This document shows, piece after piece, positions 8,738 through 64,000 of a stretch of 64,000 nucleotides of DNA. The translations under genes and the position numbers were made by a program. The stretch's first letter is position 1. The number at the start of each line of letters is the position of its first letter. The notes under the pieces were generated by a model, which did not search any database, had not been told where the DNA came from, and saw only the letters and a list, made by a program, of their open reading frames with translations. The DNA comes from Treponema sp. (lineage in GTDB: Bacteria; Spirochaetota; Spirochaetia; Treponematales; Treponemataceae): positions 62,001 to 126,000 of the forward strand of contig JAEELR010000225.1 of the NCBI GenBank assembly GCA_016282835.1, read 5' to 3'.

Positions 8738-8779
8738 AATGTGTTTATTATATTCAAAAAACACTCGCCCCGCTAGTGC

Positions 8780-8905
8780 GTTTCAGAATCTGTCTGTGCA
8801 GGGATGCTGAAGCAAGCTCGAAATAACGAGCTACAAATTCAGCATGACAGCTTTGGTTGAAGAATCGCCTGTCATTCTGAACTCGTTTCAGAATCTGTCT
8901 GTGCA
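8780..8905. repeat. composite dispersed intergenic repeat (family B)
   Basis: TTTCAGAATCTGTCTGTGCA occurs twice here; GATGCTGAAGCAAGCTCGAAATAACGAGCT.CAAATTCAGCATGACA recurs at 21934-21980 and inverted at 53328-53377. Confidence 0.88.
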
Positions 8906-10388: not shown

Positions 10389-10443
10389 TGGTGGTTGAGC
10401 GTGTACTCACCATGCCTGTGGTGGTTGAGTTCATCGAAACCAC
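10389..10443 (+). repeat. two family A repeats, first degenerate
   Basis: ggtggttgagcgtgtactcacc and gtggttgagttcatcgaaaccac. Confidence 0.75.
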
Positions 10444-10561
10444 GTATTTCACACTGACCACAGCCTCTTATGATGTCGATTGAATTTATACTTTTTTCTA
10501 TATAGTATATAAAAGTCTTTTTAGATGATGAAAGTAAATTTATAAATAAGAGGGACTTTAT

Positions 10562-11493: not shown

Positions 11494-11518
11494 GGTGGTT
11501 GAGCTAGTCGAAACCACC
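11494..11518 (+). repeat. family A palindromic repeat
   Basis: ggtggttgagctagtcgaaaccacc, perfect 7-bp arms. Confidence 0.9.
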
Positions 11519-21861: not shown

Positions 21862-21980
21862 TCTGTCATTCTGAATACTTCGACAGGCTCAGTACATCGC
21901 TCGTTTCGGAATCTGTACGTGCAGAGACTGACAGATGCTGAAGCAAGCTCGAAATAACGAGCTGCAAATTCAGCATGACA
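21862..21980 (+). repeat. family B composite repeat containing a family A-like core (cttcgacaggctcag)
   Basis: tgtcattctgaatacttcgacaggctcagtacatcgctcgtttcggaatctgtacgtgcagag...gatgctgaagcaagctcgaaataacgagctgcaaattcagcatgaca. Confidence 0.88.
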
Positions 21981-47672: not shown

Positions 47673-47697
47673 GGTGGTTGAGGCTCTCGAAACCACC
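47673..47697 (+). repeat. family A palindromic repeat
   Basis: ggtggttgaggctctcgaaaccacc. Confidence 0.9.
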
Positions 47698-53688: not shown

Positions 53689-55671
53689 ATGAAAAAAGTA
53701 AAGTTTACTTTTTTGGCTACGATGGTTCTGGCGTTAGTTTTAACTGGCTGTCAGGGGATTTCTGCTCCGGAATTTAAAGAAAGTTCTACGGCTGCAAGAG
53801 CTGCTGCTACTGAAAGCTCTAAGCGTGTTGTAGGATACTTTTGTGAATGGGGTATTTATGCTGCTCATGACAGCTATTACGCTACTTCTATTCCGGCGGA
53901 TAAGTTGACGCATATTAACTATGCTTTTATCGGTTTAAATGAATCAAATCAATCTGTAGAAATTTATGATCCATGGGCATCAACCGACATTGTATATCCT
54001 GGTGACAGTTGGGATACAGAGTACAAGGGAAATCTTGGACAACTGCGAAAACTAAAGAAACAATACCCGCACTTAAAAGTATTGATTTCTGTTGGCGGCT
54101 GGACAAAAGGTCACGGTTTCCATGCTGCTGCTGCAACAAGTTCAACAAGAGCAAGAGCTGCTTCAAATCTTGTTAAATTTGTTGTTGATTATGGTCTTGA
54201 CGGTATAGACATTGACTGGGAATATCCTGGAGTTCATAGAAATAAAGACCCTGGTGATGAATATGATAAAGGCTGCCCGGGTGGAATTGAAGATAAGAAA
54301 AACTTTACTTATTTCTTAAAAGCTATTCGTGAAGAATTAGATAAACAGGGTGCAAAAGACGGAAAATATTATGAATTGACTGCTGCTATTGGTATTGGAT
54401 ACGACAAAATTGCTGTAACTGAACCAGGAGAATATTCAAAATATTTGGATGCTATTAACTTAATGGCATATGATATGCACGGTGCATTTGAAAGCACTGT
54501 AGGACATCAGGCTCCTTTGTATGCAAATCCAAACTGCAAGGTTTATGATGCAGAGATGCAGGAAAAATATAATATAGACTGGTCTGTAAAAAAATTCATT
54601 TCAGAAGGTGTTCCTGCAAGTAAGATTGTAATTGGTTTACCATTCTACAGTCGCGGATGGAATAATGTTTCTGGCGGTTATGACTTTGACGGAGACGGAG
54701 TTTCAGATGGTATGTTTGGAAAAGGCGGTTCAACATTAGCTGGAAAGTGGGGTGTTGGCGGTCAGAGTCCTTACTTTGCAATGAAGGAACTGGAAAAAAC
54801 TTCAGGCTGGGTAAAATATCGTGATAACATTACAAAGGCTTGCTGGCTTTACAACAGAAGCAAGAAAGAACTTTATACTTATGATGATGCAGACACAATT
54901 AAAATCAAGTGTGACTATATTAACCAGAATAATCTCGGTGGAGCTATGTACTGGGAAATTGACGGAGATGACTGGAAAAACGGTTATGACCTTGTAAACA
55001 TTATTCATGAATCAGTTTTGAACGGCGTTGTATTTGAAGAAAATCCAGATATTGGAGGAAGTGGAAGCGGCGGAACTCCTGTAGATCCTGAAATTCCAGA
55101 AACACCGGTTATTCCAGAAATTCCAGAAACTCCTGCAGCAACCGGAATCCCGGGAACACCAGCAATTGAACAGACAACCTGGAACGGTGAAGCTACCTTT
55201 GGAATCAAAATGAATATGTGGTGGGGTAACAATGGCACTCTCGCTGAACTTTATGAAAATGGTGTTTTGATTGATTCAAAAACATTTACTGACAATACTC
55301 CATCTGCACAAAGTTATACATTCACACTCTCAAATAAAGCAAATGGAATTTATTCTTATAAAGTAAAGCTTTCAAACTCAAGCGGATCTTCTACTTCTAA
55401 CACAGTTAAATACACTGTAACAAAAGGAGATGCTGCCGGAGATATTGTTGTTGTTCCTGAAGAACCTGAAATACCGGAAGAGCCTGAAGAACCAGAGACT
55501 CCTGAAATTCCAGAAAATCCATCATCAGCAGAATGGGGAACTTATGTAAGCTATACAGCCGGCGATGTTGTTTCATACAAGGGCAGCAGCTATGTTTGTT
55601 TAGTAACACATGTTTCATATTCAGACACCTGGAATCCAAAAGACGCTCCAACACTCTGGTCTAAAAAATAA
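53689..55671 (+). CDS. GH18 chitinase lipoprotein with Ig-like domain and C-terminal CBM5/12-like domain
   Basis: Lipobox LTGC; DGIDIDWE catalytic motif; C-terminal W-rich chitin-binding pattern (YTAGDVVSYKGSSYVCLVTHVSYSDTWNPKDAPTLWS). Confidence 0.93.
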   Translation: MKKVKFTFLATMVLALVLTGCQGISAPEFKESSTAARAAATESSKRVVGYFCEWGIYAAHDSYYATSIPADKLTHINYAFIGLNESNQSVEIYDPWASTDIVYPGDSWDTEYKGNLGQLRKLKKQYPHLKVLISVGGWTKGHGFHAAAATSSTRARAASNLVKFVVDYGLDGIDIDWEYPGVHRNKDPGDEYDKGCPGGIEDKKNFTYFLKAIREELDKQGAKDGKYYELTAAIGIGYDKIAVTEPGEYSKYLDAINLMAYDMHGAFESTVGHQAPLYANPNCKVYDAEMQEKYNIDWSVKKFISEGVPASKIVIGLPFYSRGWNNVSGGYDFDGDGVSDGMFGKGGSTLAGKWGVGGQSPYFAMKELEKTSGWVKYRDNITKACWLYNRSKKELYTYDDADTIKIKCDYINQNNLGGAMYWEIDGDDWKNGYDLVNIIHESVLNGVVFEENPDIGGSGSGGTPVDPEIPETPVIPEIPETPAATGIPGTPAIEQTTWNGEATFGIKMNMWWGNNGTLAELYENGVLIDSKTFTDNTPSAQSYTFTLSNKANGIYSYKVKLSNSSGSSTSNTVKYTVTKGDAAGDIVVVPEEPEIPEEPEEPETPEIPENPSSAEWGTYVSYTAGDVVSYKGSSYVCLVTHVSYSDTWNPKDAPTLWSKK

Positions 55672-55689: not shown

Positions 55690-55841
55690 GGTGGTTGAGT
55701 AGCGTAGCGTATCGAAACCACCCTGAAAGGATAAAACATAGGGGGTAGTTTCGACTAAGCTCAACCACCCCCTGATTATTTGCTGTGAAAGGTTATTGGG
55801 TTTAATTTTAAATTGTGGTGGTTGAGCCTGTCGAAACCACC
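55690..55841. repeat. three family A palindromic repeats between the chitinase genes
   Basis: 55690-55722 (+), 55741-55772 (-), 55817-55841 (+). Confidence 0.92.
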
Positions 55842-55889: not shown

Positions 55890-58643
55890 ATGAAAAAAAT
55901 TTCTAAAATAATCACAGGTTTAATTTTGGGCCTGGGATTAATTTTTTCTGGTTGTAACAATCAGTTTACAAACGCAGAATTTGAATCAACAGTTTCAGCC
56001 CGATCAGCAGTTTCAGGCTGGAGTATTGGAACTTCATACAAAATAGGTGACACAGTTTCTTATAATGGAAAAGTTTATGAGTGTTTACTTGCTCATACTG
56101 CAATCACAGGCTGGTACCCTGATGTTGTTCCTGCCCTGTGGAAATATGTTTCAGCTGATACTTCAGGTACAAATACTGAAAATCCAACAGACGATCCTGT
56201 AGTTCCTCCAGAAAATAATGAGGATCCTTCTACAGGAGAAGATGAACCAGTTACAGTTCCTGGCCTTCCGACACACATTCTTACCGGATACTGGCAGAAT
56301 TTTAACAATGGTGCAAAAGTTCTTCGCATAAGTGAAGTACCGGCAGAATATAATTTGATCGTAGTTTCTTTCGCAGACGCAACTGAAAAAACCGGAGAAG
56401 TTACCTTCAATTTAGACGGCTCGCTTGGATTCGATGAAACAGTATTTATAGCAGATATTAAAACTGTTCAAAAGCGTGGTCAGCACGTTATTATTTCTGT
56501 AGGTGGAGAAAAAGGTAATGTTACAATTGCTTCTTCTTCTGATGCAAAACGATTCTCTGATTCAGTAAAAGCTTTAATGAAGAAATACGGCTTTGAAGGA
56601 GTTGATATTGATTTAGAGCACGGTCTTAATTCTAAATACATTGCAGAAGCATTACGCGCTTTACCAAAAGGTTCTATCATCACCTTTGCACCACAGACTA
56701 TAGATATGCAGAACACAGGCACTGAGTATTTTAAACTTGCTCTTGCCATAAAAGATATTCTTACTGTAAACAACACTCAGTACTATAACTCTGGTTCAAT
56801 GCTCGGCTACGACGGAAATATCTATTCTCAGGGAAGTTATAAATTCTTAACCGAGCTTGCAAAGATTCAGTTAAAGAATGGCCTTAGAGCTGATCAGGTA
56901 GGAATTGGTGTTCCTGCAAGCGTAAAAGGTGCAAGTTCTGGCTATGTAGATCCTTCTGTAGTAATTCAGGCTCTTGATACTTTATACAAAGACTACCCAA
57001 CTATCCGCGGTGCAATGACCTGGTCTATAAACTGGGACGCTTCCAACAACTGGAACTTCTCTAAAAAAGTTGGTGCAAAATTAAAAGCAATGAATGAAGC
57101 TTCTGGCAGTACAGTAATTGAAACTCCTATAGATGATCCAGTGATTCCAACCGATGACCCTGTAATTCCAACAGATGACCCAGTAATTCCAACAGATGAT
57201 CCTGTAACTCCAATTGAAAATCCGGAAACTCCAGAAGCTGGTGAAACTGTTAAAGCAACAGGAATCCCGGGAACTCCTGCAATAGAGCAGTCAAAGTGGA
57301 ACGGAGACGCAACCTTCGGCATTAAAATGAATATGTGGTGGGGCAACAATGGAACCCTTGCAAAGCTTTATGAAAACGGAAAAGAAATTCAGTCAACAGC
57401 TTTAACTGACAATTCGCCAAATGCACAAAGCTATGTATTCAATTTAACAGACAAACCAAACGGAACTTATGCTTATGTAGTAAAACTGACAAATAAGTTT
57501 GGAACCGTTACATCGAATACTGTTAATTACACAGTAACACAGGGAACAGCATCTACACAGACTCCAAGTGGAACCACAGAAGATCCTGTTGTAATTCCTG
57601 AAGACCCTGTAGTAATCCCGGAAGACCCTGTTGTAATTGATGAGCCTGGAGAAGTTGTAATCAATACATCACTTCCAAAGCGCATTATGAGCGGATACTG
57701 GCACACCTGGAATGCTGGCGTTCCATACATCAGACTTAAGGATGTAGACCCTGCGTGGGATGTAATCAATGTTTCATTTGCTGTTCCTGTTCAACCTGGC
57801 AGCGGAGATGGAAAAATGATGTTTGAAGTAGTTGATGATGATGCTACATTTATTTCTGATATTAAAACACTTCAGGCAAAAGGCAAAAAAATTGTTCTTT
57901 CTATTGGTGGATATGAGGGATATTTCTATCTTGAAAATTCTAACAGTGTAAAAACATTTGTTAACGACATCAAAGGCTTTATCGACAAGTACGGATTCGA
58001 CGGAATTGATATTGACCTCGAACAAAGCTCAGTTTCAATGAACAGCGGTGCAGACCCTGATTTCGCTCATCCAAAGACTCCTCGCATTGTAAATATGATA
58101 AATGCAATCAGACAGATTTGCGATTCATACGATGACGACTTCATTCTTTCATGGGCACCGGAAACTTTCTACATGCAGCTGGGACACACATATTACGGTG
58201 GTATAAACAGCTATGTAGATTCAAGAGCCGGCGGATACCTCGCAATGATTTACGCATTACGCGACAAGACAACTTATGTGCAGACTCAATTGTATAATTC
58301 TTCATCAATTCAGGGAAATGACGGTAAGTGGTATACAATGGGAACAGAAGAAGGCATTGTTGAAATGTGTAAAATGCTTATGGATGGTTTCTATTTGAAC
58401 GGCGGAACAACATACTTCTGGCCGGGACTCAGACCTGATCAAGTTGTAATTGCAGTTCCTTCTTCAAGCAGTGCAGCTGGTTCCGGACAGATTTCAAATT
58501 CCGGCTTGCAGAATGCATTTAAGAAACTCGAAAAAGATTATCCTGGTATCCGTGGATTTATGGCATGGTCTATAAACTGGGACGCTTATCAGAATAATAA
58601 CAGCTTTGTAAGAGAGAACAGAAGCTTCTTGAACAAGTACTAG
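55890..58643 (+). CDS. lipoprotein with N-terminal CBM5/12-like domain and two GH18 chitinase domains separated by Ig-like domain
   Basis: Lipobox FSGC; two catalytic motifs FEGVDIDLE and FDGIDIDLE; shared Ig-like module ATGIPGTPAIEQ..WNG.ATFGIKMNMWWGNNGTLA.LYENG. Confidence 0.93.
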   Translation: MKKISKIITGLILGLGLIFSGCNNQFTNAEFESTVSARSAVSGWSIGTSYKIGDTVSYNGKVYECLLAHTAITGWYPDVVPALWKYVSADTSGTNTENPTDDPVVPPENNEDPSTGEDEPVTVPGLPTHILTGYWQNFNNGAKVLRISEVPAEYNLIVVSFADATEKTGEVTFNLDGSLGFDETVFIADIKTVQKRGQHVIISVGGEKGNVTIASSSDAKRFSDSVKALMKKYGFEGVDIDLEHGLNSKYIAEALRALPKGSIITFAPQTIDMQNTGTEYFKLALAIKDILTVNNTQYYNSGSMLGYDGNIYSQGSYKFLTELAKIQLKNGLRADQVGIGVPASVKGASSGYVDPSVVIQALDTLYKDYPTIRGAMTWSINWDASNNWNFSKKVGAKLKAMNEASGSTVIETPIDDPVIPTDDPVIPTDDPVIPTDDPVTPIENPETPEAGETVKATGIPGTPAIEQSKWNGDATFGIKMNMWWGNNGTLAKLYENGKEIQSTALTDNSPNAQSYVFNLTDKPNGTYAYVVKLTNKFGTVTSNTVNYTVTQGTASTQTPSGTTEDPVVIPEDPVVIPEDPVVIDEPGEVVINTSLPKRIMSGYWHTWNAGVPYIRLKDVDPAWDVINVSFAVPVQPGSGDGKMMFEVVDDDATFISDIKTLQAKGKKIVLSIGGYEGYFYLENSNSVKTFVNDIKGFIDKYGFDGIDIDLEQSSVSMNSGADPDFAHPKTPRIVNMINAIRQICDSYDDDFILSWAPETFYMQLGHTYYGGINSYVDSRAGGYLAMIYALRDKTTYVQTQLYNSSSIQGNDGKWYTMGTEEGIVEMCKMLMDGFYLNGGTTYFWPGLRPDQVVIAVPSSSSAAGSGQISNSGLQNAFKKLEKDYPGIRGFMAWSINWDAYQNNNSFVRENRSFLNKY
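57132..57215 (+). repeat. in-frame tandem repeat, 4 x 21 bp, encoding DDPVIPT linker
   Basis: gatgatccagtgattccaacc / gatgaccctgtaattccaaca / gatgacccagtaattccaaca / gatgatcctgtaactccaatt. Confidence 0.92.
57579..57641 (+). repeat. in-frame tandem repeat, 3 x 21 bp, encoding EDPVVIP linker
   Basis: gaagatcctgttgtaattcct x3 with substitutions. Confidence 0.88.
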
Positions 58644-62385: not shown

Positions 62386-63240
62386 ATGAATAAAATATTA
62401 GAAAAAAGACAGCTGTCTGAGAATGTCTTTTATATGAAATTTGATGCTCCAGACATCGCTAAAAATCGTAAGGCTGGTCAATTTTTAATCGTTCAGGTTG
62501 ATCAGGATTTATCTGAACGCATTCCACTTACAATTGCAGATGCTAATGCCGAAGAAGGCTGGGTTGCAATTGCTTTTCAACCAGTTGGTGCTTCAACTTA
62601 TAAACTTTCATTGCTTAATGAAGGTGACTATTTAGGCGGAGTTTTAGGACCTTTAGGAACTCCAAGTACAATTAGAAAATATGACAGACCTGTAGTTTGT
62701 GTAGGCGGCGGTTTTGGAACAGCTCCTCTTTATCCAATTGTTCAGGCATTAAAAGAAGCAGGAAATAAAGTAATCTTAATCGAAGGAGCCCGCACTAAAG
62801 ATTTACTTATTTTCGTTGACGAAATGAAAGCAGTTTGCGATGAAGTAATTATCTGTACAGATGACGGTACTGCAGGAGAGAAATGCGTTACAACAGTTCC
62901 TCTTGAGCGCCTGTGCCAGAGTGATGTTCCTCCTGCAGAAGTAATTGCAATTGGCCCTCCAATCATGATGAAGTTCTGCGCTTTAACTACACAAAAATAT
63001 AACATCCCTACAACAGTTTCATTAAATACAATTATGATTGACGGAACCGGTATGTGCGGTGGTTGTCGTGTTTCAGTTGGCGGTGAAACAAAATTTGTTT
63101 GTGTTGATGGTCCAGATTTTGACGCTCATAAAGTTGACTGGAACAATATGATGATGCGTATGAAATCCTTCAAAGATTTAGAAACAGAAGCTTATCATAA
63201 GTGTAAAATGGAAGCAGAAGCTGAAAAACTTGCAAAGTAA
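62386..63240 (+). CDS. sulfide/dihydroorotate dehydrogenase-like FAD/NAD-binding protein (NfnA-like)
   Basis: GGGFGTAPLYPIVQAL nucleotide-binding, DGTGMCGGCRVSVGGETKFVCVDGPDFDAHKVDW 2Fe-2S cysteine cluster; NfnB/GltA-like gene follows. Confidence 0.88.
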   Translation: MNKILEKRQLSENVFYMKFDAPDIAKNRKAGQFLIVQVDQDLSERIPLTIADANAEEGWVAIAFQPVGASTYKLSLLNEGDYLGGVLGPLGTPSTIRKYDRPVVCVGGGFGTAPLYPIVQALKEAGNKVILIEGARTKDLLIFVDEMKAVCDEVIICTDDGTAGEKCVTTVPLERLCQSDVPPAEVIAIGPPIMMKFCALTTQKYNIPTTVSLNTIMIDGTGMCGGCRVSVGGETKFVCVDGPDFDAHKVDWNNMMMRMKSFKDLETEAYHKCKMEAEAEKLAK

Positions 63241-63265
63241 TAAGGGGATTATGAGAAAAGCCCAC

Positions 63266-63290
63266 GGTCATTGAGCTTGTCGAAATGACC
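63266..63290 (+). repeat. family A palindromic repeat with alternative arms
   Basis: ggtcattgagcttgtcgaaatgacc; GGTCATT/AATGACC arms fully complementary. Confidence 0.92.
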
Positions 63291-63307
63291 ATTATTGTTG
63301 GAGTAAA

Positions 63308-63625
63308 ATGTCGGCTTATATGTATATTTTGAAGTGCAGTGATAATTCTTATTATGTTGGAAGCACTAAGGATTTACAATTGAGATTTGAACAACATTCT
63401 AATGGAATGGGATCTGAATATACAAAACGGCGTTTACCAGTTGAACTTGTGTATTATGAAGAATGCTTAAGTATAAAAGAGGCATTTCTTAGAGAAAAAC
63501 AGGTTCAAGGTTGGAGTAGAAAAAAAAGAGAGGCTTTGATAAATGGTGATTATAAAAATTTACCTGAATTAGCAAAGTCTAAAAATAACATGGTGGTTTC
63601 GACAGGCTCAACCACCGGGGAGTAA
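63308..63625 (+). CDS. GIY-YIG nuclease family protein
   Basis: MYILKCSDNSYYVGSTKDLQLRFEQHSNG...YTKRRLPVELVYYEE...AFLREKQVQGWSRKKREALI; C-terminus encoded by a dispersed repeat. Confidence 0.92.
   Translation: MSAYMYILKCSDNSYYVGSTKDLQLRFEQHSNGMGSEYTKRRLPVELVYYEECLSIKEAFLREKQVQGWSRKKREALINGDYKNLPELAKSKNNMVVSTGSTTGE
63592..63616 (-). repeat. family A palindromic repeat at the 3' end of the GIY-YIG CDS
   Basis: ggtggtttcgacaggctcaaccacc, exact reverse complement of the 25-mer at 55817-55841. Confidence 0.95.
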
Positions 63626-63628
63626 ATT

Positions 63629-64000
63629 ATGTCAGACGCAGTAAAAATATTAGATGAATTAAAAGCAAAAGGCGAACTTACAAATAAAGACCGCATGGCT
63701 ATTCCACAGCAGGAAATGCCAACCCGCGAGCCATTAGTTCGTGCCCGCCAGATGGATGAAGTTGCTCTGGGTTATACAAAAGAACAGGCAATTGTAGAAG
63801 CAAACCGCTGTCTTCAGTGTAAAAATCAGCCTTGTGTTTCAGGCTGTCCTGTAAATGTACGCATTCCTGATTTTATCGCAGAAGTTGCAAAGGGTGAATT
63901 CAAGAAAGCTGTTGATGTAATCAAGACAACAAATCTTTTGCCTGCAATCTGTGGTCGTGTTTGTCCTCAGGAAAAGCAGTGCCAGGCTCAGTGTACTGTA
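63629..64000 (+). CDS. NfnB/GltA-like glutamate synthase small-subunit family protein, truncated by window end
   Basis: MSDAVKILDELKAKGELTNKDRMAIPQQEMPTREP...CLQCKNQPCVSGCPVNVRIPDFI...CGRVCPQEKQCQAQC. Confidence 0.9.
   Translation, partial: MSDAVKILDELKAKGELTNKDRMAIPQQEMPTREPLVRARQMDEVALGYTKEQAIVEANRCLQCKNQPCVSGCPVNVRIPDFIAEVAKGEFKKAVDVIKTTNLLPAICGRVCPQEKQCQAQCTV

Follow-up and report, generated by a model that had tools for sequence, protein, structure and literature searches.

A small GIY-YIG nuclease gene framed by inverted palindromes in Treponema: a candidate enzyme partner for dispersed bacterial repeats

Why does a small GIY-YIG nuclease gene lie between the genes for NfnA- and NfnB-like subunits in a Treponema genome, framed by two inverted copies of a palindrome? 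The window (the whole stretch of DNA analysed, 64,000 nt) comes from a genome assembly of 2.77 Mb that is 93% complete, with 5.9% contamination. The left neighbour of the gene (62386-63240, + strand) lies outside the unit considered here and encodes an NfnA-like FAD/NAD-binding subunit (PRK06222, 385 bits), while the right neighbour (63629-64000, +), recognised by sequence matches and cut by the window end, encodes an NfnB/GltA-like subunit. The putative unit (63266-63616, +, 351 bp) consists of a family A palindrome in + orientation (63266-63290, GGTCATTGAGCTTGTCGAAATGACC), a gene for a single-domain GIY-YIG nuclease of 105 aa (63308-63625, +; PF01541 match) and an inverted family A palindrome (63592-63616, -; GGTGGTTGAGCCTGTCGAAACCACC when read on its own strand). 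The upstream 25-bp palindrome ends 17 bp before the start of the gene, and the downstream palindrome overlaps the gene's 3' end, where it encodes the tail VVSTGSTT. Dispersed family A palindromes are found in the window at 10420-10444, 11494-11518, 47673-47697 and 55817-55841 (all +), the last having the same sequence as the unit's downstream copy read on its own strand. A preliminary description of this DNA had reported the 105-aa ORF between inverted repeats, the downstream copy that supplies part of the protein tail, and the identity of this copy with the repeat at 55817-55841; all are borne out, and its coordinates proved correct.

Inverted ends are present at both sides of the unit, no classical transposase lies within its 351 bp, and no target-site duplication is readable against relatives. 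A search of the locus against Rfam returned nothing relevant. An anti-phage function or a phage origin of the gene is unsupported, because PADLOC gave no match at the locus and PHROGs gave endonuclease matches only, all weak.

The 105-aa protein matches the Pfam GIY-YIG domain (PF01541) with 63.8 bits (cut-off 22.6), and its alignment columns are invariant at the Y..Y-G, R, H and E positions of I-TevI/UvrC-type active sites. By domain and catalytic residues it is a predicted GIY-YIG nuclease. It is the product of the one small GIY-YIG gene in the window's genome; the other PF01541 match lies in a frame of 695 aa, which is as long as UvrC. No HUH family match was found for the protein. The nearest solved structures are 1zg2 and 1ywl (UPF0213), single-domain proteins with the same domain and the same length, which are themselves uncharacterised; SLX1 is among the weak PDB matches. 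Compared with homing endonucleases of the I-TevI type, the protein shares the catalytic fold, and its gene is likewise absent at syntenic sites in relatives, but it is the catalytic domain alone, without the long separate DNA-binding region of those enzymes, and it is associated with a dispersed palindrome family rather than with an intron or a conserved host-gene target.

Family A is strongly over-represented in the window and in the genome. Its core (TGAGNNNNTCGAAA) occurs six times in the window against 0.12 expected, a count reached in 0 of 100 shuffles. Genome-wide there are 94 copies of TTGAGNNNNTCGAAA against 4 for the reversed control pattern, and 44 copies of the strict 25-mer against 0 for the control. 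The copies are mainly intergenic, mostly singles or tandem pairs and less often head-to-head doublets. In the full genome-wide list of cores, the only + then - pair spaced 200-600 bp apart is the pair around the GIY-YIG gene. Among the strict copies listed, 13 of 17 close pairs of family A are head-to-head, with mixed orientations around the nuclease genes, and a count of doublet orientation over 27 loci did not confirm a bias for this family; a head-to-head arrangement is therefore claimed only for these strict copies and for family B, described below, in which it is found in 14 of 15 close pairs among the matches listed.

Other repeats were seen in the same genome. Three family A palindromes form a head-to-tail array with an exact 23-bp period at L253 (G000:C118:3392-3452; G000 is the window's genome). 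The window carries a further repeat family at 8779-8905 and 21902-21980 (CGTTTCAGAATCTG..., GATGCTGAAGCAAGCTCG...CAGCATGACA), which resembles the GCTGAA/TTCAGC type that accompanies a different GIY-YIG subfamily in other genomes of the genus. A 164-nt repeat (55099-55262 and 57216-57379) is common to two neighbouring chitinase-like secreted proteins, GH18-looking, with repetitive proline-rich linkers.

The arrangement is general. A search of 98 genomes of the genus gave 27 small GIY-YIG genes, with palindromes on both flanks, of families that differ between genes. In a family-blind test, the 200 bp upstream of each gene were compared with the reverse complement of the 200 bp at its 3' end (score at least 15), and flanking inverted repeats were detected for 21 of 25 GIY-YIG genes (84%) against 0 of 251 other genes at the same loci. 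In named genomes of many phyla, scanned for subfamily B only, the corresponding values were 40/75 (53%) and 5/395 control genes (1.3%), so that about half of the distant genes have no detectable inverted pair. Bacteroidota relatives of the window's subfamily showed flanking inverted repeats in 13 of 29 cases against 2 of 728 random windows; some of these relatives share as much as 67% identity with the window protein, an indication that genes of this subfamily have been exchanged between phyla. The flanking repeat is dispersed in 20 of 24 named genomes outside the genus, with up to 59 matches, and control matches were zero.

Unbiased word counts, taken in the frame of the gene, gave the same picture in the worldwide set. 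The most enriched 6-letter word upstream is TGTCAT (52/80 against 26/409) and downstream it is ATGACA (51/78 against 35/430), so the tags of the repeats point outward. Conserved GIY-YIG genes of a group named Brachyspira-like from the look of its sequences served as a negative control; none of 20 carries the upstream TGTCAT tag, and the inverted-repeat score of the group barely exceeds its AT-rich, slightly raised background (median 12 against 11). Unlike the genes described above, this group thus shows no association with repeats. As a test of prediction, two + then - repeat pairs 300-520 bp apart that no GIY-YIG search had led to (G392:C6 and G405:C23) were picked from the dispersed repeats of these genomes, and both contained a GIY-YIG ORF.

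A small intergenic gene could fall among palindromes by chance where these are common between genes, and the repeats of the window's genome are indeed abundant and mostly intergenic. However, the absence of a flanking pair from all 251 neighbouring genes, p values of 1e-28 to 1e-31, the Brachyspira-like control and the success of both blind predictions leave this reading with a negligible probability; the matched controls already refute it. The association of small GIY-YIG genes with palindromes is practically certain, and the enrichment of repeats near such genes, which the preliminary description had proposed to look for, is present at both gene ends within the genus and beyond it.

That description had spoken of a single repeat family. 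Family A is real, but at least four families exist, and they are matched to subfamilies of the nuclease. Type A (GGT-nnn-TGAG-nnnn-TCGA-nnn-ACC) is partnered by the subfamily of the window (KGYMYILKCSDNSYYVGST). Type B/G1 (TGTCATTnnCnnn-CTTGA-nnnGnnAATC or TGTCATTCCCGCG-nnn-GCGGGAATCC) is partnered by YYVYILTN or YYVYILAS proteins, and type D (CGTCATTGCGAG...GAAGCAATC) by SYIYI and GYVYIMTNKNN proteins; type G2 comprises TGTCAT-GCTGAAC-TTG-TTTCAGC and similar sequences. Of 24 genes of the window's subfamily, 11 are clearly flanked by TGAG-TCGA and none by a GTCAT-type repeat, whereas in the other subfamilies 62 flanks are GTCAT-type, 8 are GCGA-type and one is TGAG-TCGA (plus three with both types), giving a Fisher value of 3e-12 for subfamily against repeat type. 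The nuclease tree shows 16 changes of repeat type, compared with 38 when the types are shuffled (minimum 32), a contrast inflated by near relatives, and the clusters of repeat type cross phyla. The strongest control for specificity is provided by paralogues inside single genomes (G074, G019 and G058), which carry different repeat families. In G058 the A gene and the B gene each lie among repeats of their own family, and a type D gene is present in addition in G019 and G074.

The stems of the repeats are maintained by compensatory change. The 48 distinct B repeats analysed are paired in 94% of cells, and their covariation is 0.442, compared with 0.145 in shuffled sets (0/500 reaching it) and no more than 0.12 when slid. 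Family A has three variable stem positions beside the fixed TGAG...TCGA core whose partners are kept; they are paired in 85, 83 and 86 of 88 repeats, compared with shuffle maxima of 57, 55 and 74. Folding as DNA gave a hairpin for each of three repeats tested. Conservation of the hairpin form while the letters of the stem drift is as expected of a structure-recognising enzyme, and a role in RNA would give the same signal.

Presence of the gene varies at two chromosomal sites. The nfnA-nfnB gap measures 388 bp in the window; among 14 relatives in the genus it is mostly 10-47 bp (exceptions are 96 and 119 bp in two, and 100 bp in one broken reading), in agreement with the earlier view that the two genes are normally adjacent. 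The empty site that had been sought is thus present: all 14 relatives lack the gene there, and the unit occupies this gap only in the window's genome. One relative (G015) has a lone type A repeat within the gap. In the nearest relative on the tree (G036), and likewise in G055, G058, G065 and G074, the GIY-YIG gene lies between two genes that we take to be serC and serA, the downstream one reading as phosphoglycerate dehydrogenase. The same gap holds a GIY-YIG gene of the other subfamily (B) in G029 and G046, and most other genomes have only a short gap there, with no such gene. In the window's genome it measures 160 bp (G000:C126, before serA, L307) and contains inverted type A repeats only; G013 also has type A repeats only. 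Since occupancy of the two sites differs, the gene appears to have changed place in this lineage, in either direction, or to have disappeared from one of the sites and been acquired at the second. Any movement is rare, because the gene stays at one site in several genomes.

The serC-serA gaps of G000 and G013, with repeats and without the gene, could be read as target sites of a selfish, homing-type nuclease gene that lands between the halves of a doublet, the repeats themselves being spread by other means. Homing endonucleases do belong to the GIY-YIG family, and in some genomes the repeats outlive the gene. This explanation is nevertheless quite unlikely: a protein reduced to the catalytic domain has no I-TevI-type DNA-binding region, the correlation with copy number described next is left unexplained, and no alternative mobiliser was found, a Y1 transposase being undetected in 10 of 12 genomes tested.

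Presence of the gene is accompanied by abundance of its own repeat. Each of the 11 genomes that carry the A gene contains 20 or more A cores (median 124), compared with 26 of 87 genomes without it (median 9; p=2e-6). A close B gene is accompanied by at least 20 B repeats in 6 of 6 genomes (median 81.5), compared with 10 of 92 where it is absent (median 1; p=7e-5). Pairing each gene with the repeats of the other family gave no significant difference (0.82 and 0.26). In these p values the genomes of the genus were treated without phylogenetic correction. Exceptions were also seen. There are 143 B repeats in G021 (99% complete) and 68 near-identical ones, some in tandem arrays of 112-122 bp, in G001 (97% complete), and no small GIY-YIG gene was found in either; the same holds for the less complete genomes G072, G005 and G097, which have many repeats. 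For these genomes either a loss of the gene after spread, a recent one in G021 and G001, or the action of another enzyme must be assumed.

The copy numbers also bear on an opposite role, in which the nuclease would bind or cut the palindromes to limit them, or would serve the host through hairpin removal, replication-fork processing, mRNA ends or chromosome organisation, with co-evolution keeping the match and no spreading involved. Structure-specific GIY-YIG enzymes do exist (SLX1 is among the weak structural matches), and the gene is stable at serC-serA in several species. Such a guarding or housekeeping role is nonetheless unlikely, as carriers of the gene have more repeats rather than fewer, and it explains neither the place of the gene between two inverted copies in fixed orientation nor the horizontal spread of gene and cognate repeats across phyla.

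The closest parallel is the REP/RAYT system, in which a gene between two inverted palindromes co-evolves with them and correlates with their copy number (Nunvar 2010, PMC2817692). The likenesses (PMC2817692, PMC3116915) are a usually low-copy gene between inverted palindromes with the same palindrome dispersed, a correlation of gene presence with repeat abundance (exceptions G001 and G021), and co-evolution of enzyme and palindrome, in which compensatory change keeps the stems and repeats can outlast the gene. The enzyme differs, being a GIY-YIG nuclease (PF01541) without homology to RAYT rather than a Y1/HUH protein (PF01797). The tag also differs, since the enriched words are TGTCAT/ATGACA (GTCAT/TGTC tags) or the TGAG-TCGA core in place of GTAG, and the GIY-YIG pairing spans many phyla. 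The similar architecture (PMC2817692) might suggest ordinary REPs moved by a tyrosine transposase, with the nuclease incidental. This is highly improbable, as PF01797 was undetected in 10 of the 12 repeat-bearing genomes tested, the window's genome among them, and of four Y1 loci in the other two, three are without repeats and the fourth has two B repeats away from the gene ends. The best reading is a REP/RAYT-like partnership that would be built on a non-homologous nuclease.

A second class of REPs, tagged CGTC, includes the neisserial dRS3 and the rickettsial RPE-4 and RPE-6, and "apparently lack[s] a dedicated transposase" (Di Nocera 2013, PMC3733652). These repeats have a TGTC/CGTC tag, an 8-9 bp stem beginning with AT, a 4-5 nt loop, and head-to-head dimers (PMC3733652). 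The GTCAT-type families beside GIY-YIG genes agree with this definition in tag, stem, loop and dimers, and the GIY-YIG genes would fill the place of the dedicated enzyme; the window's family A (TGAG-TCGA) has no CGTC tag. The small GIY-YIG nucleases are thus the best candidate for the enzyme missing behind a large class of bacterial repeats. We consider it somewhat better than an even chance that they are the partners of CGTC-type REPs and of further palindrome families, including TGAG-TCGA, in many phyla, and that they constitute a second REP/enzyme system without homology to RAYT, whose single-domain enzyme would spread the palindromes by recognising hairpins. A search of the open literature, with preprints and subscription journals outside its range, turned up none in which GIY-YIG genes are connected to REPs; a Moraxella paper reports RayT and a GIY-YIG gene as both clade-specific and does not relate the two.

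For the locus in the window, the explanation we favour, and hold to be reasonably probable, is that the gene encodes a dedicated enzyme partner of the flanking and dispersed palindromes, which would cut them as hairpins and so lead to their spread. Its observed basis is fixed inverted co-location, specificity between subfamily and repeat, copy-number correlation, stem covariation, and presence or absence at two sites. The nuclease would recognise its cognate hairpin, either extruded or single-stranded during replication, or as duplex, and nick or cut at or beside the palindrome; repair or copying would then spread solo or paired palindromes, and the gene between two palindromes would be the autonomous version. 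GIY-YIG enzymes do not hold a DNA end covalently, so cutting alone fails to explain insertion, and the joining step would have to be supplied by host repair or replication. This proposed mode resembles an IS with its MITEs, with an unrelated nuclease. Mobilisation of the repeats by the nuclease, which would include binding and cutting, is on balance the more probable outcome. Besides the repeat-rich genomes without the gene, the distant genes with no inverted pair, the absence of a readable target-site duplication, the rarity of head-to-head doublets of family A in the window's genome and the fixed position of the gene in several genomes speak against this explanation. The idea of a RAYT analogue put forward in the preliminary description is accordingly divided: its association part is strongly supported by the flank enrichment, the empty nfn site and the failure to detect a RAYT in the genome, while the repeat-rich, near-complete genomes without the gene weigh against its mobilising or processing part.

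In many bacteria, among them Neisseria (dRS3) and Rickettsia (RPEs), the space between genes is filled with short palindromic repeats. RAYT accounts only for the GTAG class, and no enzyme was assigned to the CGTC class in the 2013 survey (PMC3733652). The consistent and specific link to GIY-YIG genes puts a name to a protein and to its candidate substrate and makes a simple assay possible, and it offers a hypothesis of function for a large set of genes annotated merely as 'GIY-YIG nuclease family protein'. It also allows the position of such genes to be predicted from a widely spaced inverted repeat pair.

A recurrent setting was noticed for the window's subfamily. At L102 (G101) and L265 (G520), in two phyla, its GIY-YIG ORFs run in-frame into the helicase part of an hsdR-looking gene (type I restriction, DECH box), and other ORFs of the subfamily lie directly before HsdS-like ORFs; loci L100, L107 and L117 were also noted. 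Type I restriction-modification loci may be a recurrent insertion target for these genes.
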